Positions 1,133 to 16,598 of a DNA stretch of 64,000 bases are shown here, piece after piece (the first letter of the stretch is position 1; each line of letters starts with the position of its first letter). The notes under the pieces are model-generated. The model saw only the letters and a list, made by a program, of their open reading frames with translations, was not told where the DNA came from and made no database searches. The position numbers were made by a program, and so were the translations under genes. This DNA comes from Ophioderma brevispina (Eukaryota; Echinodermata; Ophiuroidea; Amphilepidida; Ophiodermatidae): NCBI GenBank assembly GCA_023653785.1, contig JAMKCH010002869.1:1-64000 (forward strand), read 5' to 3'.

Positions 1133-1215
1133 AGTCACTCTTAAGTCAGTGGTAAATGTCCAATGCCGAAATAGATAATTTATTGGAGAAAACAACAGTT
1201 TCGGGCAATTCCCAA
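1133..1215 (-). repeat. Inverted terminal segment, left end of Penelope copy A
   Basis: Read on the minus strand, this segment repeats the element's right end: the hammerhead 3' half (GCCCGAAACTGTTGTTTTC region), the AT-rich ATAAATTAT stretch, and TTTCGGCATTGGACATTTAC followed by the TGACTC motif. Matching sequence on the plus strand lies at about 2935-3008. Penelope-like elements often carry such partial terminal repeats in inverted orientation. Confidence 0.75.
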
Positions 1216-1329
1216 CATAAAGCATCAGCCGATTATCTTTTACAGTCTTCTGGCCACCCATCTTTTCAGACACTCCCACGTATGTTAAGACACGTACCAC
1301 AACCCCCGCTCTTCCGATCGTTAATGAAT

Positions 1330-1770
1330 TCAGCTTCAATCACGGACATCACGCTATTCGATTTTCACCATGAACGTCAATTCTCTATACACTTCCATTC
1401 CAATCAACGATGCCTCATCGCCCTCCAGCATTTTCTAGACTTGCACAACGCATCCTCATCTCTCCTACCACTCTTCTCAGACTAGCCGAACTATTCTCAA
1501 CACCCCGCCACCTTCGAGTTTTCGACGGCACCTTCTACAGCCAATCAGGGGGATAGCAGGGGGTCCAACCCATGGGTGGGAGCTTGCCTGTTTAATTTCA
1601 TCGGTACCACCTTGAGAAAAAAATCCAACTCGTCACCGGTACCAAACCCGACCTCTTCAAGGCGATACAAAGATCGAGGACTGTGTCGGTGCTTGCCTCT
1701 TGCTCCTCTGAAGAACTGGAAGAATTCATCACTTTACTTCACACATTTTTCATCATCCATCTAGCATCTA
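1330..1770 (+). pseudogene. Reverse transcriptase fragment, Penelope copy A
   Basis: Short in-frame stretches separated by frameshifts encode the middle of a Penelope-type reverse transcriptase. The segment corresponding to the DVKFLYTSIP region of copy B is recognisable near 1360-1400. The FDGTFYSQ block lies near 1515-1545 and is followed by a Gly/Met-rich MGSS-type motif. The catalytic box is damaged: where copy B encodes IDDC, this copy reads IEDC near 1671-1685. The upstream half of the domain is missing. It aligns with about 5990-6440 of copy B. Confidence 0.65.
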
Positions 1771-2469
1771 TCCAATTTACTTATGATATCCCCTCCACCC
1801 ACCTTCCATTTCTTCTCGACATTACCTCTATCGCCGACAGTCATCTATCAACTAGCATCTATTACAAAGACACTGACTCTCACAGGCTACCACCTCACTT
1901 ACAACTCTTCACACCCTCAGCATGCAAAAATAACATACCGTACTCACAAGCCCTACGACTACGGGGCCGCGCCTGTGCCAAGATGAGATGACTTTCAAAC
2001 CAACAGCACTCATATGTCATTCTTCCACGATCGTGGATATCCCTCCACTGTACTGATGCTGCTATCCCAGAGCCAGCCGCATCATCGCATGACGCCTGGA
2101 GCCCAGCACGTCAATTCATGATAGATCGTCCCTCTAGTAGCTCTCACTTACCATCCCCTTACTGCCCAGTTTCTAAAGTTATCAAAAGAAACAGCAGAAC
2201 CTAGATGCCGACCCTTGGAACGAAGCCTCTTTCCATCCATCATCCAAGCCCCTTTGCGCCTTACCGTAAAGACCGTAACTTACGTGACAGTGTGTTGCCT
2301 TCATCACAACACATCACACCATAAGCCTGGCTTCCAACACACCGGATTCAACCACACCATGCAGACGAAAACCTGCCACACATGCGCTCAATTTTCCTCT
2401 TCTGACAGCATCACAGGCCCAAAGTAACATTATTTGTCCATCAGGTATCATTCTCCTTCAAAACCACTA

Positions 2470-2770
2470 ACGTGTTTTATGCCATCGAATGCACCAAATG
2501 TCATCTGCTATAGCTATTGGTGAAACAACGTCGTATAGCTGACCGGTTTACTGAACAACCTACGTTCGATCCAACTTCATCAACCCGGCCTCCCTATTGC
2601 CAAGCACTTCGGGAAAAACCACTCTAAGGATGACATTCGTGTTCCTGTAATCACACAGTGTGAGGAAGACGACCACCAACGCCATCTAACTGAACAACGC
2701 ATCATATATAAACTAGGGACTCTTCACCCGGCTGGACTGAATGCTACTTTCAATGCTTTCCGGCTATAAC
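2470..2770 (+). pseudogene. GIY-YIG endonuclease fragment, Penelope copy A
   Basis: After a degenerate linker, this stretch encodes a GIY-YIG-like nuclease broken by indels. A Cys-x-x-Cys element (CTKCH) at about 2490-2505 precedes the YIGET signature. Residues equivalent to RSNFINPAS follow near 2565-2595. The C-terminal block EQRIIYKLGTLHPAGLN (about 2690-2740) is intact in one frame. Penelope-like elements join such a nuclease to the C-terminal side of their reverse transcriptase and use it for target cleavage. The same block recurs at about 7365-7435. Confidence 0.7.
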
Positions 2771-2910
2771 TGTTTTTTGCGCGTCTCTCCATTGCGCACA
2801 TCCGCACGCACTGCTGTGCGCCCCACTTCATACGCTTCATAGTTCACGCTTCATCTAATATAATGCGCACTTCAGTTAGTTCCCATTCTGTTTTGTAAAC
2901 AAACTATTTC

Positions 2911-2950
2911 TCTACTTAACCTGATGAAGGGCGATGCCCGAAACTGTTGT
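2911..2950 (+). ncRNA. Hammerhead ribozyme-like core in Penelope copy A tail
   Basis: The sequence CTGATGA, a 4-bp stem (GGGC-gat-GCCC), then GAAAC matches the conserved core of a hammerhead: CUGAUGA, stem II, GAAA. Hammerheads are documented in the terminal repeats of Penelope-like elements, often with a very short stem III. Only the ACUGU segment could form stem III here, and I find only about three pairs for stem I, so activity is uncertain. The plus-strand orientation matches the element. Confidence 0.5.
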
Positions 2951-3060
2951 TTTCTTCTAATAAATTATATATTTCGGCATTGGACATTTACCACTGACTC
3001 ATATTGACTCATTTTTTCTAATCATACCATGCCTACGCAGCCAACTTTATTATTTATTAT

Positions 3061-4440: not shown

Positions 4441-5159
4441 AAAAAACAATAAGGAAGATTTGGTTCAATGTTCAACGGTCCCGTGCATCCACCATACTCG
4501 CGCGCTCGGCGTGAAGAATGTTTTTATTTGGGCGTAAAAACTCTTGCTAACGCGGGATTGCGCTCTTGCTTGTTAAGCCGCGGGGCAATCGACGCTTCAC
4601 AGTGCTGCGGAAGACATGTCGAAGATATTGAGGCTTGGAACGGATTCAAAGTTGATATTGACCCAAACTCCGATCCTTATCAACCGTCTTCAACCTCTCC
4701 AGTTTCCTGGGAACGTTTCCTCCCTCCAGTCGTTGAAGCTGCTGCATTCAAATTTGCCACATCCACATTTAACAGAACAGGTTTTTTTGTCAACCATGTT
4801 TCTTTCATTTCTACCTGACCATACCTCTCAACCTCATCCTCATGGCTTTCCGTCGGAAATTCAACCCTACGTTCAACAACATTCGCTGTGAAACTGTGAC
4901 TTTTCACATGAACAAATGTGTTCCAGACGTCCGAGGCATCTCGCCATTTCTTCTTTCAGCAAGAACAGCCACTTCCACAGCCATAATATGCACTATCACC
5001 GTGAACACCCGCCAGGCATCTTGTTCTGATCAGATTTCTCAATGATCGAATCATTTGGTTCACAACTTAAATAGGACATATTACGAATGCGTAACAGTAA
5101 ACAGATTCCAATCTTCGAGTACTCCGTCAAGAAATTTCGCAATCCAAGAACAATAACAT

Positions 5160-6450
5160 TAACAACGGTAAGAATAAACGCCTTATTGTTACCATTCCTC
5201 CGACCCTTGAACTTACTGATGAACAGAGATCCGTACTCTCCAAAGGATTTACGTTCCTCCCGTCACAGCCCAAAGATTGATCGAATTTCAAATGCTTTTG
5301 GTTTGAGATGTTTACGACAATGCGTCTCAAGGCTGCACTCCATGATAAAGAGAACAATGATGTCATCGCTGACAACAATCATGGTGATGATTTTTTTGCT
5401 TTCACAAGAATGCAAATCCAATTGGAACCCTGCCCTGCACAGGGAATTCCGACTCTTGACCTGTTCATTGAGAAATGCCGCCATGATATTTACAAGATCA
5501 ATCTTCCAACACGGCGTAATCCTAGCAACCTCAGCGCGGGCGAAAAGTCTGCCTTCAAAGCTCTTCCGTCGCACAAAAATGATTTGATCATCAAAAAACC
5601 CGCCGATAAAGGTGGTGCTACGGTAATTTGGCGGAAGGACTTGTACCTCTTATAAGCTAACCGTCAGTTGTCCGACAACAAACTCATACCTACCTTCTAT
5701 CAGAACGCGCCCATGGATGAACAACAAGCTAATATCTCTGAAAACCAGCAATGAACTCATTCAAGATAAGGAAACTTCCAGCCGGCGCTACAAAAACTCA
5801 TCCAAACGTAAACCCACGACTAGTGACGATTATACATACTTCCCCAAAAATACACAAAAACCTGATTACACCCTGGTTCGTCCTGTCGGTTTTCCAACTG
5901 CAATTTGCCCAACAGAAATCACAGGGAGTTATCTATTGACATATTCTGGCAACCATCGTTCAGAAATTTCCCACGATGTAAGGACACTACCCACGCTCTT
6001 CAGATCTTTATGATGAATCAGCTTCACGGGACATCACCGATATATCTTCACCATTGGGGACGTCAAGTTCCTATACACTTCAATCCAATCAACGATGGCG
6101 GACCTCATCGCCTCCAGCATTTTCAGCCTTTGCATAACGCATCATCATGCTCTACTACCAGCTCTTCTCGACTAGACGAACTAGTTTCAACACCCGCCAC
6201 ATGTCGAGTCGACGGAACCTTCTACAGCCAAATCAGGGGGAATCGCCATGGGGTCATCCATGGGTGGAGTTTGCGTTTATTCATCGGCTACCTTGAAGAC
6301 AAATATTCAACTTGTTCCACCGGTACCAAACCCGAGGACCTCTTCAAGCGATACCATCGATGACTGTGTCGCGTTGCGTGCTCTTGCTTCTGAAGGAAAC
6401 TGGAAAGAAAGAATTCTTCAACTTTACTTACAGTTTCATCCATATATCAA
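5160..6450 (+). pseudogene. Reverse transcriptase remnant, Penelope copy B
   Basis: The frame-broken coding stretch begins near a DEQRSVLSKGFTFLP-type block (about 5215-5265). It continues through an open segment at 5308-5655 that ends in PADKGGATVIW, a signature of Penelope reverse transcriptases. DVKFLYTSIP-like and NGTFYSQIRG blocks follow near 6055-6080 and 6205-6240. The catalytic box reads RY, one extra base, then IDDC (6349-6367), so the YIDD-type aspartates are present but out of frame with their upstream context. At least six frame changes are needed across the domain, so it is a pseudogene as assembled. Some breaks may be sequencing error, because copy A breaks at different places. 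Confidence 0.75.
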
Positions 6451-7104
6451 TTTACGTTGATATCTCCTCCACCCACCTTCCATTTCTTGACATTACTCTC
6501 TCTATCGCCGACGTCATCTATCAACTCTAGCATTCTATTACAAAGACACTGACTATCACAGCTACCTCACTTACAGCTTTCACCACCCCTACAAGAAGGG
6601 CAAAAAACAACATAAAGTACATCCACAAGGCCTACGACTACGCCCGGTGTACAAGATGATGATGGAATTTCAAACCACGGCAACTTCTGATGTTTCATTC
6701 TTCCACGATCGTGTAATCCATCCATCGTAAATGATGCTCTATCCACAGGCCAGCCGCATGCAGTCGCATGGACGCCATGGAGCCCAGCACAATTCATGGA
6801 TAGATCGTGTTCCTCTAGTACTCACTTACCATCCACCTACTGCCCAAGTTTCTAAAGTTATCAAAAGAAAACAGCAGAAGCCTAGATGCCGACCCTGGAA
6901 CAAGGCCATACTTTTCATCCAAGCCCATTTTCGCTTTAACGAAAAGACCGTTAACTTACGTGACAGTTTGGTTCATTCATCACACCATAAGAGCCTGCCT
7001 TCAACACCGGATTCAAACCACACCATGCAGAAGAAAACGCTTGCCACACATGCGCCCATATTTTCTCTGCTGACAGGCATCACAGGCCAAGGACAGTATT
7101 TCCA

Positions 7105-7440
7105 CCAAGGGATATTCTCCTGCAAAAACCACTAAACGTGATTTATGCCATTCAGAATGCACCAAATGTCATCTGCTATACATTGGTGAAACCAAACGTT
7201 CTAGCTGGACGGTCCGGTTTACTGAAACACCTACGTTCGATCAACTTCATCAACCGGGCCTCCCTGTTGACAAGCCACTCGGGAAAAACCACTCTAAGGA
7301 TGAAAACCTTCGTGTACTGTGTTAATCACACAGTGTGAGAAGACGACCACCAACGCCCTCTAAGAAAACGCCATCATATATAAACTAGGGACTCTTCACC
7401 CGGCTGGACTGAATGCTACTTTCAATGCTTTCCGGCTATG
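7105..7440 (+). pseudogene. GIY-YIG endonuclease remnant, Penelope copy B
   Basis: The open segment at 7138-7338 contains the VIYAIQ-type start, a frame-shifted YIGET signature near 7178-7200 and HLRSINFINRASLL. A second frame then carries IIYKLGTLHPAGLNATF (about 7371-7430). These are the N- and C-terminal landmarks of the nuclease also seen in copy A at 2470-2770. The domain belongs to the same polyprotein as the reverse transcriptase. It is broken by at least three indels. Confidence 0.7.
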
Positions 7441-7591
7441 ATAAAAATGTTTTTCGCGCGTATCTCAGCGCAAATCCGCACCGCTCTGCTGTGCGGGCCC
7501 ACTTCATACGCTTCATAGTTTCACGCTTCATTCTAATGCGCACTTCAGTTCCCCATTCTGTTTTGTAAACCACCTTATTTCTCTACTTAAC

Positions 7592-7616
7592 CTGATGAAG
7601 GGGCGTGCCCGGAAAA
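7592..7616 (+). ncRNA. Degraded hammerhead-like core in Penelope copy B tail
   Basis: CTGATGA followed by a GGGC/GCCC stem and GGAAAA lies at the position equivalent to the core in copy A. The stem II loop has lost bases and GAAAC has become GGAAAA, so this copy looks inactive or misassembled. Its conserved position supports the core as part of the element's tail. Confidence 0.4.
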
Positions 7617-7714
7617 TTTGTTCTTCTAATAAATTATATATTTCGGCATTTGCCATTTGACCTAGGACTCATAATTGACTCATTTTCTAATGATACCATG
7701 CCTACGCAGCCAAC

Positions 7715-7777
7715 TTTATCTTTATTATATATATATAATATATAGGTAATATATCTATATAATATTATACTCAAATT
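7715..7777. repeat. TA-rich microsatellite between Penelope copy B and the hammerhead dimer
   Basis: Irregular TA/TAT repeats separate the Penelope tail from the first hammerhead unit. A similar TA tract ends each unit (about 7945-7990 and 8155-8235). Confidence 0.7.
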
Positions 7778-7821
7778 CTGCAGACAGTAACGTTTCGAAT
7801 TGTGTTCTCATCAGTGCAGCA
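7776..7821 (-). ncRNA. Type I hammerhead ribozyme, unit 1
   Basis: On the minus strand the order is CTGCA (stem I), CTGATGA, a GAA/TTC stem II with loop CACAA, GAAAC, a short stem III (ACG/TGT with loop TTAC), then the cleavage triplet GTC and TGCAG, which closes stem I. All invariant core bases (CUGAUGA, GAAA, and UC before the cut) are present. The five stem I pairs join 7778-7782 to 7815-7819. Confidence 0.8.
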
Positions 7822-8165
7822 AAGAGCTAAATGCAATCCACAAATGAAGTGAATCAATGACCCGTTACGCCACTGACCCAATCCATCACCCGCACATTGT
7901 TTATGATACTGGAGTGCTCAAACTCAAGAGTGAGCTATGCAAATATAATATATATATATATATTATTATATATTATACTTATATAGATCAATCTGCAGAC
8001 AGGACCGTTTCGAACTTGGTGTTCTCATCAGTGAGCACAGAGCTAAAGGCACTCCACCATGAAGGGGAATCAATGACCCGGTAAGCAATGACCCACTCAA
8101 GCACGCCGACATTGTTCATGAATAGGAGTGATCAAACTCAATGAGTGAGCTTATGCAAATATATA
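7778..8165 (-). mobile_element. Retrozyme-like tandem dimer with hammerhead ribozymes
   Basis: Two direct units with a 215-bp period start at CTGCAGACAG (7778 and 7993). They share nearly all their sequence, including TCAATGACCCG, the GAGTGAGCT motif and a terminal TA tract. Each unit carries a complete minus-strand hammerhead fold. Tandem repeats of a few hundred bases with a type I hammerhead in every unit define retrozymes in plants and animals. They are transcribed, self-cleave to monomers and circularise, and in animals Penelope-like elements are the suspected source of mobilisation. Cleavage at the two predicted sites (between 7782/7783 and 7997/7998) would release a 215-nt RNA. There is no open frame of note. 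Confidence 0.75.
7991..8040 (-). ncRNA. Type I hammerhead ribozyme, unit 2
   Basis: On the minus strand this repeats the unit 1 fold: CTGATGA (8025-8031), a GAAC/GTTC stem II of four pairs (8012-8015 with 8021-8024), GAAAC, a short stem III, GTC and TGCAG. Stem II has changed by a compensated pair extension relative to unit 1. The 5' strand of stem I reads GTGCTCA instead of GCTGCA and pairs less well, possibly because of indel noise. Confidence 0.7.
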
Positions 8166-8235
8166 ATTATATAGAGATTTATATATATATATATATATAG
8201 CTAGATTTATATAGATTATTATATATAATCTATGA

Positions 8236-9771
<1,536 letters not shown>

Positions 9772-12256: not shown

Positions 12257-13149
12257 CAGGGTGTACCAGAATGATTAGTACCCAAAAAAATCTAGAATAT
12301 ATTAATTTTTTTTATAATAAAATGGATGATATGGGGGTTTTTGCTGCAATCATCAACTTAGGCATACTTTAAAATTTCAAAAGTATTTTAGATCACAAAA
12401 ATCGGGCTATCCAAAGTGTAGAAACAGTCCAAAGTGTCAGAGGTGGTGATTTCGTCCTTACGACAAAGTGCTAAAATAGTGTATAGAACTTGTTAAAAGG
12501 AAACAAACAAATATTTTGTTCTCTCTTGCTTTTCAACTATTTTGTTCCCTCTTCTTAGCAACTGTAAAAGCTGTAAGTTTAACTCAATATTGACTATCCA
12601 TGCATACAAAGGTTTGGTCATGCTTTGTTACACATAAAACACATGCTTATCTTGGATTTTGGAGGGAGTTTTTGAATAGCTAATGATGTTGTACTGGTAG
12701 GCTATTGCAGGCAAATCCAATGATTACATTGGTAGAGAGTGAGGACCTAACAAAATGGCTCGCCACTTTACTGTGCAGCAGAGGTCTTTCATTGCAAAAA
12801 GCTACTGGGAGACCAAAAATTACTTAGAAGTTAAGAGACGATTTGCTGCGAGATTCCCTAGTATAGAGAGCGCCGAGTCCCTTCTAAATGTGCCATTGCC
12901 TACAACGTGAGAAAGTGGGATAATCCTTTTTTTTTCACTTTGCCAAAAGTACGAAATCACCATGTCTGCAAAATTGGTACGTATCATCGGTTTGCAAAGC
13001 CCGAATTTCAAGATCTAAAATTCTTCCGCAAGCTGAAATTATGCCAAATCTAATTTAAATACCAGATAACCCAATACCATTTGTTTTCATGGCCAAAAAA
13101 AATAATAATTTTGGATATTTTTGGGTACTAATCATTCTGGGACACCCTG
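12257..13149 (+). mobile_element. Tc1/mariner-type element, internally deleted
   Basis: The ends are inverted repeats of 27 bp matching at 26 positions (12257-12283 and 13123-13149), starting CAGGGTGTNCCAGAATGATT. A TA dinucleotide flanks each side (12255-12256 and 13150-13151), the target duplication expected for Tc1/mariner elements. At 893 bp it is shorter than an autonomous element of about 1.3 kb or more. It keeps only the transposase N-terminus. The right end is reused as the left edge of the following tandem duplication. Confidence 0.85.
12755..12910 (+). pseudogene. Transposase N-terminal fragment
   Basis: A 51-codon frame begins MARHFTVQQRSFIAKSYWET and continues with RRFAARFPS. This is the helix-turn-helix start typical of Tc1/mariner-like transposases, where a FT-x-x-Q-R-x-F-I-x-K-x-Y-W pattern precedes RF-x-x-x-FP. 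The frame ends early, and no DDE catalytic domain follows before the right inverted repeat. The element would be non-autonomous. Placement inside perfect inverted repeats supports the call. Confidence 0.65.
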
Positions 13150-13910
13150 TATGTAATGTGTAAAGGGTTTTGCTAATATCTAAAATTAAATTTGATTAAT
13201 TTTAATCACACTTTAAAGATGCTTGTTCCGATTTATGTCTATCGTGTTCTCTACATGATATGAGAGCCTGGCACTTGCACGTACGCCCTATCAAGTACCG
13301 TGGGAAACAAGCTTGCGGTTTTGACGGTAGAAGCAATAATGCATATTACAAAGTCCTATTCAATACTGTGCTAATATTGATGGTTAACCACTAAAACGTC
13401 GGTTTTTCGTTTATATTTTGAGAATGAAATGGATTTGAGGGCTGAAATTTCAGGACGACAATGAGAAAAATACAGCCTTTCATCCGATATCAAATTCGAT
13501 ACTACTTCTGGGTAAATCAGGGGGGTCCTAAAGACGATCGGAACAAGCACCTTTAAAATGAAAATTAACGTGCAAGAATGAAAATCCATGTATTTCAAAA
13601 ATATTCCGACAGCTATTTCTAAAAGTGGTTTAACTTTCTTACTAAGTTGTGAATATTACGACAATGGCTTTAAAAGATATAGATGTTGGCGATCCTATCA
13701 TGCGATTTTCTTTTTGTTAGGCCATTTTTCTTGGCATGAAACCAAGGTTCAAAAATAGACAAGATTCACCATAATTTGACGGTATTCATGCTTTCCCCTA
13801 AGCACCCTATACGCTTAAAGGTCCCAGGAAATGAGATGATAAACCTACTCCAAATCTTTTATGGGACATTCCATTCCATAAACAGGGCAAGAAAAAAGAA
13901 TACACTACCA

Positions 13911-14026
13911 GTGACATCATTAGTGAAACTATTGATTTTCAGTCAGTGTCATGAATGGATTGACACCAATCACCTGGAATTTTCTATTACTCCCTGAAAA
14001 ATCAATAGTTTCACTAATGATGTCAC
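13911..14026. repeat. Hairpin-forming inverted repeat
   Basis: The 32-bp arm starting GTGACATCATTAGTGAAACT (13911-13942) is repeated in reverse complement at 13994-14026 with one extra A, separated by 51 bases. The equivalent in unit 2 (about 15653-15770) is degraded. The size and compact arms fit a small fold-back or MITE-like element. Confidence 0.75.
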
Positions 14027-14459
14027 CACCAACCCAAATATTGAATGCTTTCTAGTCCCTCCTTGTAGACTTGATACAAACTACATTAATTGTATTTGCA
14101 TTTCCTAGGACCTTTTAAAGCACACGAAAAACAAAAAGTCGAGCGCGCCGTCGTGCATTACGTGCCATTACGCAGCACACGCTGTACACGCGCACATTAT
14201 AAGACCTATTCGTCACGCTTCAAAGAACTAGAAGGCTACTTTTACGTCACTAAAATGCTACTTTTACGTCACTTCCGGGTTCGCGGCCAGCGCGATAATC
14301 ACTTTCAAAGCTTGTCTGAAACCCATGATGTTATGCCCAATTTTTATCAAATCTACGGTTTCTCAAATACTGCTTCATGCAGATTTCACATTGATACCAA
14401 TACATACTGTGAATGAAACTGTTTTGGGGAGGTATTATAAGTATTTTTAAAGCATGTCC

Positions 14460-14770
14460 ATGGACCTTTAAAACCAACTCAAATAGAAAATCTTTTTAGT
14501 CCTTCTTGTAGGAATTCATGAGAGATGAGAGATAATAAAAGACCCATCACGTGACCCATGGTTTACGGGTGGAAGTGGTCAAAATACTTCAAAATACGTT
14601 ACATTTCAAATAACTTACTCCTTTCTGCAGATTATGCAACATGGTTCGCGTGAATGATGCATATGATTGCCTTGATGAAATCTTTACAACGGTTATGGAT
14701 CGAGAGGTCAATCTGGGGGTAATCTGGGGTCACTAAAGTCCAAGACTCATTTACTGTTGTGTAAAATTTT
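14460..14770. repeat. Dispersed repeat unit within tandem unit 1
   Basis: This carries the same ordered landmarks as 10140-10445, beginning near CTCAAATAGAAAATC and ending at CTCATTTACTGT. A second, truncated unit starts directly after it (AAACCTCTTTGTCC), suggesting a tandem period of about 310-330 bp. Confidence 0.6.
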
Positions 14771-14868
14771 AAGCAGGATAAAATAAGGGAAACCTCTTTG
14801 TCCATACGACAGGACTTGACGAGAGCTCAATAAAAAGTCAAGTATGACCCATCATTTGGACCTCATGA

Positions 14869-16598
14869 TACTAATCATTCTGGGACAACCTGTATGTAAT
14901 GTGTAAAGGGTTTTGCTAATACTAAAAAATTAAATGTGATTAATTTAATCACACTTTAAAGATGGTGTTCCGAGTTAGGTCTATTGTGTTCACTCTACTG
15001 ATATGAGAGCTGGCACTGAACGTACGACCTATCAAGTACCGTGGGAAACAAGCTTGCGGTTTGACGGTAGCAAGCACTAGCAGATTACAAAGTCCTAGTC
15101 AATTAGTGCTAATATTGATGGTTAACCACTAAAACGTCGTTGTTCGTTTATAGTTTGAGAATGAAAATGGATTTGAGGGCTGAAAAATTTCAGGCGAAAG
15201 GAGAAAAATACCGCCTTTCATCCGATATCACAATTCGATTACTACTTCTGGGTAAATCAGGGGGGTTCCGAAGACGATCGGAACAAGCACCTTTAATATT
15301 TGAAAATTAACGTGCAAGAATGAGAATCCTTATTTCAAAAATATTCCGACAGCTATTTCTAACAAGTGGTTTAACTTCTTACTAAGTTGTGAAATTACGA
15401 CAATGGCTTTAAAAGATATAGATGTTGGCGATCCTATCATGCGATTTTCTTTTTGTTAGGCCATTTTCTTGGCATGAAACCAAGGTTCAAAAATAGACAA
15501 GATTCACCATAAATTGGACGGTATTAAGGCTTTACCCTAAGCACTCCTATACGCTAAAAGGTCCCAGAAATGAGATGATTAAACCTACTCCAAATCTTTT
15601 ATGGGACCTGCCAGGTCCATAAACAGGGCAAGAAAAAAGAGAACACGACCAGTGACATCATAGTGAAACTATTGATTTTCAGTCAGGTGTCATGAATGGA
15701 TTGACACCAATCACCTGGAATGTTCTATTATCCCTGAAAAATCAATAGTTGCCATAATGTGTCACACCAACCCAACATATTGAATGCTTCTAGTCATCCC
15801 TTGTAGACTTGATACAAAAAACTACATTAATTGTATTTGCATTTCCTAGGACCTTTTTAAGCACACGAAAAACAAAAAAAGTCGAGCGCCGCCGTCGTGC
15901 ATTACGTGCAATTACGCAGCACATGTTGTACACGCGCACATTATAAGACCTATTCGTCACGCTTCAAAGAACTAGAAGGCTACTTTTACGTCACTAAAAT
16001 GCTACTTTTACGTCACTTCCGGGTTCGCGGCCAGCGCGATAATCACTTTCAAAGCTTGTCTGAAACCCATGATGTTATGCCCAATTTTTATCAAATCTAC
16101 GGTTTCTCAAATACTGCTTCATGCAGATTTCACATTGATACCAATACATACTGTGAATGAAAACTTGTTTTGGGGAGGTATTATAAGTATTTTTAAAGCA
16201 TGGTCCATGGACCTTTAAAACCAACTCAAATAGAAAATCTTTTTAGTCCTTCTTGTAGGAATTCATGAGAGATCAATAAAAGACCCTTATCACTTGACCC
16301 ATGGTTTAGGGGGAAGTGGTAAAATACTTCAATTACGTTACATTTCAAATAACTTACTCCTTCTGCAGATTATGCAACATGGTCGCGTGAATTATGCATA
16401 TGAATTGCCTTGAAACTCTTTACAAAGGTTATGGATCGAGAGGTCAATCTGGGTTCATCTGGGGTCACTAAAGTCAAACTCATTTACTGTGTGTAAAATT
16501 TTAAGCAAGGTAAAATAGAAAACCTCTTTGTCCCATACTGCAGGACTTGAGGAGAGCTCAATAAAAGTCAATTATGACCCTATCATTTGACTCATGGA
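14869..16598. repeat. Tandem duplication of 1.74 kb, unit 2
   Basis: This unit repeats 13126-14868 in order and orientation. The stretch at about 15933-16158 is base-for-base identical to 14190-14415, while most of the rest differs by scattered indels. The open frames at 14090-14416 and 15897-16160 are the same repeat sequence and show no protein signature. Confidence 0.85.
16215..16500. repeat. Dispersed repeat unit within tandem unit 2
   Basis: This is the counterpart of 14460-14770 in the second tandem unit, again followed by the start of another unit (about 16505-16600). Confidence 0.6.

Follow-up and report, generated by a model that had tools for sequence, protein, structure and literature searches.

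The genome of Ophioderma brevispina carries two hammerhead-bearing repeats at about 40 bp from a Penelope-like element (PLE), a position that raises the question of what these repeats are, which protein copies them and whether the neighbouring element is their helper. The window, i.e., the whole stretch of 64,000 nucleotides that was analysed (contig JAMKCH010002869.1), had been described in an earlier note as holding a dimeric retrozyme just beyond a PLE. This placement was correct: the 3′ end of the element, here called PLE-1 (PLE-1 to PLE-5 are our own numbering), faces the 3′ end of the retrozyme tail-to-tail across a TA-rich tract (7723..7762, bounds approximate). Both retrozyme copies lie on the minus strand. 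Copy 1 (7763..7943) is 5′-truncated, extends across the cut site from unit nt ~144 to 18 and is 93% identical to the family consensus, while copy 2 (7988..8159) shows the same 5′ truncation, runs from unit nt ~144 to 10 and is 88% identical. Each copy thus measures approximately 170–180 bp, breaks off at unit nt ~144 and gives way to TA-rich DNA, with one tract separating the copies (7944..7987) and another lying 5′ of copy 2 (8160..8227). Tandem Repeats Finder (TRF) reported the region as a repeat with a period of 215 bp, 2.2 copies and 79% matches (7729-8200). Within the copies, about one derived base is held in common and 15 and 29 columns are private, and the truncation point was found again at other loci. 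The two copies, now decayed, may have arisen by tandem duplication or by two insertions, and they occupy a TA tract into which a PLE inserted as well. Judged from the sequence, the locus probably comprises two decayed copies of a tiny RNA parasite with a predicted self-cutting activity. Elsewhere in the window, a ~1740-bp tandem repeat was present twice at 13126-16000 (many direct repeats 1738-1744 bp apart), and an uninterrupted run of 135 A at 9634-9768 may be an assembly feature or else belong to a retrocopy with a long poly(A) tail.

According to the earlier note, both copies fold into type I hammerheads. Both minus-strand cores were present (CTGATGA, stem II, GAAA and GTC) at 7778-7827 in copy 1 and 7993-8043 in copy 2, with predicted cuts at 7782/7783 and 7997/7998, which are spaced 215 bp apart. 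Read by eye, stem I of copy 1 is complete and its stem II reduced to 3 bp, and copy 2 has an intact core and a stem II of 4 bp, with a stem I that is disrupted and consists of only an A-U and a C-G pair before mismatches follow. The cores, the GTC triplet and the cut positions could therefore be kept; however, stem I of copy 2 is broken, and the Rfam search that had been proposed as a check gave 0 matches at the gathering threshold across the whole window. At E<=10, 11 matches were obtained between 7400 and 8500, with no hammerhead among them. High-E matches to non-hammerhead families, many of which sit in TA tracts, were taken as chance. When five other loci were searched, hammerhead matches were found only in the array L025, both below threshold (HH9, 26.5 bits, E 0.006, cut-off 52; Hammerhead_3, 24.7 bits, E 0.19, cut-off 48.5), and Rfam reported no hammerhead in L002, the ribozyme of which is identical to the consensus. 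Plain minimum free energy (MFE) folding of ~65–77-nt pieces was non-discriminating, as it returned a complete hammerhead in neither the window copies nor the consensus. By reading, the consensus ribozyme comprises a stem I of CTGCA/TGCAG with an outer GCTC/GAGT, a stem II of GAAC/GTTC and a short stem III, and the type I hammerhead with conserved core and GTC cut is found in the better-kept family members. The fourth stem II pair in copy 2 had been regarded as a gain that argues for selection on structure. However, GAAC/GTTC is what the family has in general, and the pair went missing in copy 1 with the loss of two bases. The stem II pair is therefore no evidence of selection in the window pair, and this interpretation was rejected.

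The family was then defined in the 2.51-Gb assembly (65,844 contigs). At least 141 matches were found with 40 of 795 candidates scored, and the 14-mer at the cut site had 262 exact matches in the genome compared to 3 for a reversed control. Complete units measured 301–327 bp, and the consensus, built from 18 distinct complete units (28 found; 280–330 bp filter), was 309 nt long, in agreement with the spacing within arrays. Tandem units of this size, which are within the ~150–450 bp range of retrozymes, are dispersed over many contigs. Among 40 of 572 candidates scored, arrays reached up to about 15 units; the longest among the matches scored lies at G000:C14766:10507-15023. In two further searches, 40 of 83 and 40 of 206 candidates were scored. 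Flanking long repeats were not noticed around the retrozyme copies in the locus alignments, and the unit is non-coding as far as seen. The search for further units suggested by the earlier note thus did reveal a dispersed family with tandem arrays, but its unit is ~309 nt long, so that a 215-nt circle was rejected as the family unit; no other 215-bp dimer was seen among 26 other loci.

For 27 non-overlapping loci (L023, L027 and L030 were left out of the 3′ junction counts), the 3′ end was fixed just past the ribozyme cut: the last aligned base was nt 16 in 16 loci, fell within nt 14–18 in a further 4 and was nt 7 in a single locus, whereas in 5 loci BLAST stopped at 309, yet the printed sequence continues past the cut into the TA tract. 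The alignment of the remaining locus, L017, ended at nt 251, and this was also the sole exception among the 26/27 loci in which (TA)>=5 followed the 3′ junction. As background, (TA)>=5 occurred in 430/20000 segments from the locus flanks (2.15%) and 2/1391 in the window, and a TA tract accompanied 35/1015 alignment ends between other repeats (L023, L027, L030, L001, L031, L032 and L061 left out). On the 5′ side, the retrozyme ends were scattered from nt 12 to 303, and (TA)>=3 was found within 30 bp of the flank in 22/26 loci vs 4.4%. A cluster of 5′ truncations at consensus nt 135–144 (7/26 loci, including the window) may point to TA microhomology or to a stop imposed by structure. The first 100 of the 262 cut-site matches continued into another unit in 46 cases, into TA-rich sequence in 46 and elsewhere in 8, under thresholds that we set ourselves. 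A fixed 3′ end, scattered 5′ ends and TA flanks are the layout of target-primed copying from a single fixed internal start. Since the 5′ flank carries TA runs too, the TA tract belongs for the most part to the target, rather than being tail alone; the retrozyme has TATAT at its start, and slippage could therefore account for part of the tract. LINE 3′ ends, too, commonly have AT-rich microsatellites nearby (PMC8969392).

A second element, PLE-2, was met via its end at approximately 100 bp from the retrozyme in L002. A piece of its open frame (L062:571-1260) had 665 homologues at E<=0.001, and the reverse-transcriptase-like motifs FDIVEFYPSIS and YRDDGL were recognized in PLE-2 by eye. The predicted structure (pLDDT 79) had telomerase reverse transcriptases (TERT) as its top PDB folds, with E 0.003–0.006, probabilities of 0.97–0.99 and TM ~0.4, and none at E<=0.001. 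A GIY-YIG-like C-terminus was recognized by eye in L063:914-1411. Pfam returned no reverse transcriptase or GIY-YIG domain in the PLE-2 pieces, and NCBIfam returned two weak matches on the PLE proteins, far below cut-off. A PDB profile search with the PLE-2 reverse transcriptase gave 17 weak matches, the best of which (E 0.024) was an unrelated protein; these were taken as spurious. PLE-2 was taken to be a PLE with fair confidence. Its 3′ junction was followed by (TA)>=5 in 25/30 loci, where L068, an internal junction, was scored as a miss. L068 shows the order of parts in PLE-2, namely a hammerhead-like motif (stems by eye), a hairpin, the start site ATTGAATATAT, a second hairpin and the start of the ORF; Rfam found no hammerhead in this locus at E<=10.

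The retrozyme shares with PLE-2 a hairpin that is composed of GCTC, a helix and loop, T(T/C) and GAGC, followed by ACTCT (GCTC-helix-T(T/C)-GAGCACTCT). Each retrozyme unit contains two of them, one directly after the start of reverse transcription, as in PLE-2, and a second elsewhere in the unit. The retrozyme start site ATTGAGTATAT corresponds to unit nt 6–16; it is followed by an inserted stem-loop and then by GCTCC...GTTGAGCACTCT, as in PLE-2. Common to the hairpins are the 4-bp GCTC/GAGC helix and the trailing ACTCT. Three of four folded hairpins have an inner helix and, on the 3′ side, a bulge of two bases, whereas the second PLE-2 hairpin is a plain 5-bp stem. The inner helix varies yet pairs (TACT/AGTA, TGC/GCA and TCC/GGA; ACTC/GAGT in the retrozyme), and both hairpins form in the MFE structure of the 309-nt unit folded as a circle, which is highly paired (−97.3 kcal/mol). 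The similarity of the start sites between retrozyme and PLE-2 was reached by 0/5000 shuffles with the flank and by 4/5000 for the downstream part, and that of the second retrozyme hairpin to PLE-2 by 9/5000. For untuned alignments over the whole region (240 nt of PLE-2), 29/1000 shuffles reached the score in one case and 3, 20 and 89 of 2000 in others; the penalties of the tuned alignments were chosen after these weaker whole-region results. The hairpin module appeared in 0/20000 shuffles of the retrozyme unit.

The distribution of the hairpin was followed by a pattern search and a covariance model, both applied without the seven loci listed above, in the case of the model to the window plus 83/90 loci. 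The pattern matched 42 times in the retrozyme, 20 in PLE-2, 6 in other sequences and 0 in PLE-1. One of the 6 was the second hairpin of PLE-2 and 5 lie in further elements (PLE-3, PLE-4 and PLE-5), 4/5 of which run into TA-rich sequence. For several of these elements, nothing beyond short non-coding units was seen, and they may themselves be retrozyme-like. The covariance model was built from 10 PLE-side hairpins of four families, without the retrozyme. All cells of its alignment (100%) were paired and its covariation score was reached by 0/500 shuffles; only one pair changes on both sides, a count that 445/500 shuffles reach. In 329 kb, the model found 93 matches at E<=1, including the sequences that built it: 42 in the retrozyme, 30 in PLE-2 and 21 in other sequences. 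It matched 21/26 of the retrozyme loci searched, in both hairpins, with modest scores (E 0.002–0.013 in the better copies), and it had no match at E<=1 in the retrozyme copies of the window. By reading, 15 of the 21 other matches are PLE-3-, 4- or 5-like and 1 is the second PLE-2 hairpin, while 5 are weak (L037, L044 twice, L058 and L066), some of them in the flanks of PLE-1 loci. Genome-wide, the pattern occurred 1345 times, a number that also takes in nested occurrences and a family lacking the inner helix, vs 9 for the reversed control. The inner helix was fully paired in 32/76 distinct strings, taken from 100 listed of the 1345 matches with nested or overlapping ones left out, vs a shuffled mean of 11.3 and a maximum of 21 in 5000. 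A repeated pattern variant without the inner helix, GCTCCATATAAGTTTTTTGAGCACTCT and near forms, was also seen genome-wide. These hairpin tests were not blind, because the motif was seeded by the comparison of retrozyme and PLE-2, other families were recruited via a shared 9-mer and penalties were set after weaker results, and the counts are less than independent because the sequences are related. The hairpin was also noted in other non-coding units of hammerhead-like character, in L052:1049-1420 (~300 bp apart), L004, L085 and L055; they are possible additional retrozyme families or multimers of PLE non-coding repeats (pLTRs).

With regards to mobilization, we consider it likely, from sequence comparison, that the retrozyme is a SINE-like passenger of PLE-2-type elements. 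By analogy with known retrozymes, tandem copies would be transcribed, the type I hammerhead would cut the transcripts into ~309-nt RNAs, and these would be joined into circles. A reverse transcriptase of the PLE-2 group would then start just after the cut, at ATTGAGTATAT, on TA-microsatellite target DNA, and the cDNA would run a variable length around the template, leaving insertions in (TA)n that range from a truncated monomer to a long array. The hairpin and ACTCT would be the start-site signal of the helper, carried by the retrozyme. Points against this model are the different order of start and hairpins in PLE-2 and the retrozyme, the missing Pfam domains, the ribozyme scores below the Rfam thresholds and the lack of hairpin-model matches in the window copies. 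As start site and hairpin match, the likely helper is the PLE-2 group and not the neighbour in the window. SINEs share the 3′ ends of LINEs, so that a non-coding passenger bears the recognition signal of its helper. The retrozyme would resemble such pairs in carrying the signal; it would differ in that its template is probably a ribozyme-released circle and its helper a PLE.

The strongest competing explanation, which we regard as unlikely but worth serious attention, considers the retrozyme a multimerized fragment of a pLTR that is moved by a PLE protein and owes its hairpins and ribozyme to descent. Two loci speak for it. In L052, a C-terminus that resembles PLE-2 by eye is followed by a pair of hairpins ~300 bp from each other, which enclose a ribozyme-like core, and in L004 (minus strand), PLE-5 leads, in the order hairpin, start, hairpin, hairpin, into an ORF start that resembles that of PLE-2. 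However, clear similarity to PLE-2 is missing outside the start region and the hairpins in the 240 nt of PLE-2 compared, and the order of parts differs: ribozyme, hairpin, start and hairpin in PLE-2, but ribozyme, start, hairpin and, further on, hairpin in the retrozyme. Stem I of the ribozyme and its loops differ between the two as well.

That the adjacent PLE-1 is the helper appears improbable. The window copy (4468..7722, plus strand, bounds approximate) has many broken frames and a 3′ end at the TA tract, and stands in tandem with a partial upstream copy (1156..3060, plus strand), with direct repeats 4670-4674 bp apart. A hammerhead-like core lies in its 3′ region (7592..7615, plus strand; counterpart in the upstream copy at 2921-2944), and a GIY-YIG-like C-terminus was seen by eye near 7074-7440. 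Pfam showed no domain in the PLE-1 pieces tried, and a search with a PLE-1 piece gave 0 matches. In favour of PLE-1 as the helper, it uses the same target, as (TA)>=5 follows its 3′ junction in 22/30 loci, a set that includes both window copies and in which some misses have imperfect TA and one (L032) is an internal tandem junction scored as a miss. It also lies tail-to-tail with the retrozyme in the window and ~400 bp from it in L042; both element types occur within ~3 kb of each other in the window, L002, L042, L079 and L073. However, no covariance-model match at E<=1 overlaps PLE-1, and its similarity to the retrozyme start site was not above shuffles. Thus, the suspicion that PLEs mobilize the retrozyme is sustained by the common (TA)n target and the shared start hairpin, but it is PLE-2-type elements that carry this hairpin. 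The earlier picture of a helper and its passenger caught together gives way to another: the two are probably adjacent because both insert in TA microsatellites, and the neighbouring PLE-1 is probably not the helper.

The 215-nt circular RNA predicted from the two cut sites 215 bp apart has very little to recommend it. Both window copies have suffered decay, and TA-rich DNA lies between them; with both copies truncated and TA-flanked, stem I of copy 2 broken by reading and the dimer spacing peculiar to the window among the loci compared, they do not form two working ribozymes flanking a full unit. We find it equally hard to credit that unequal crossing-over spread the arrays as it would any ordinary satellite, with TA-rich flanks by coincidence, since, the arrays of up to about 15 units notwithstanding, the 3′ end is fixed, truncated monomers are dispersed over many contigs and the TA flanks are far above background.

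A broader form of the passenger model is more tentative, and in our judgement its chances fall a little short of even. Here, the hairpin and the internal start would act as a portable RNA 'ticket' common to a guild of hammerhead elements in this genome, comprising several PLE-type families and at least one retrozyme, which would use it to recruit the reverse transcriptases of GIY-YIG PLEs to TA microsatellites. Retrozymes would have arisen from PLE non-coding repeats, and the repeated reading of ribozyme-made circles by the PLE protein would therefore give rise to the arrays.

Metazoan non-LTR retrozymes have been described from coral, mussel and axolotl (Cervera & de la Peña 2020, PMC7229834). 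Those retrozymes lack an LTR, give RNAs of ~170–400 nt and occur in genomes that contain PLEs. The present family resembles them in its tandem units with a type I hammerhead, as read from the sequence, and differs in the features described here, namely its 3′ start, a (TA)n target and the PLE-shared hairpin. PLE hammerheads are reported to act as dimers and are minimal type I motifs in tandem (Lünse 2017, Cervera 2014, as summarized in PMC7761336); those lie in pLTRs, whereas the retrozyme forms a unit of its own that, to judge from what was inspected, is non-coding. In PAc, a PLE from Anolis, reverse transcription starts internally at a stem-loop downstream of the hammerhead, the target is AT-rich and the insertions bear a tail signature (PMC11167929). 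The fixed 3′ start and scattered 5′ ends found here are like this PLE 'tail' layout, which is explained by internal initiation. In vitro, the PAc protein uses two close start sites and leaves a short 'tail' (PMC11167929); similarly, PLE-1 copies stop at either of two 3′ end points, which lie ~40 nt from each other and both run into TA-rich sequence. The PAc start, in contrast, shows no homology with the cleaved DNA, and PAc cuts most frequently at an ATT motif (PMC11167929), while in O. brevispina the target consists of (TA)n and the start module also occurs in a non-coding passenger. A search of mostly freely accessible literature found no (TA)n target or shared start hairpin for retrozymes. 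A concrete motif, a start site and a target now tie one retrozyme to one PLE group, and the question of who copies animal retrozymes can therefore be put to the test using a single purified protein together with short RNAs.
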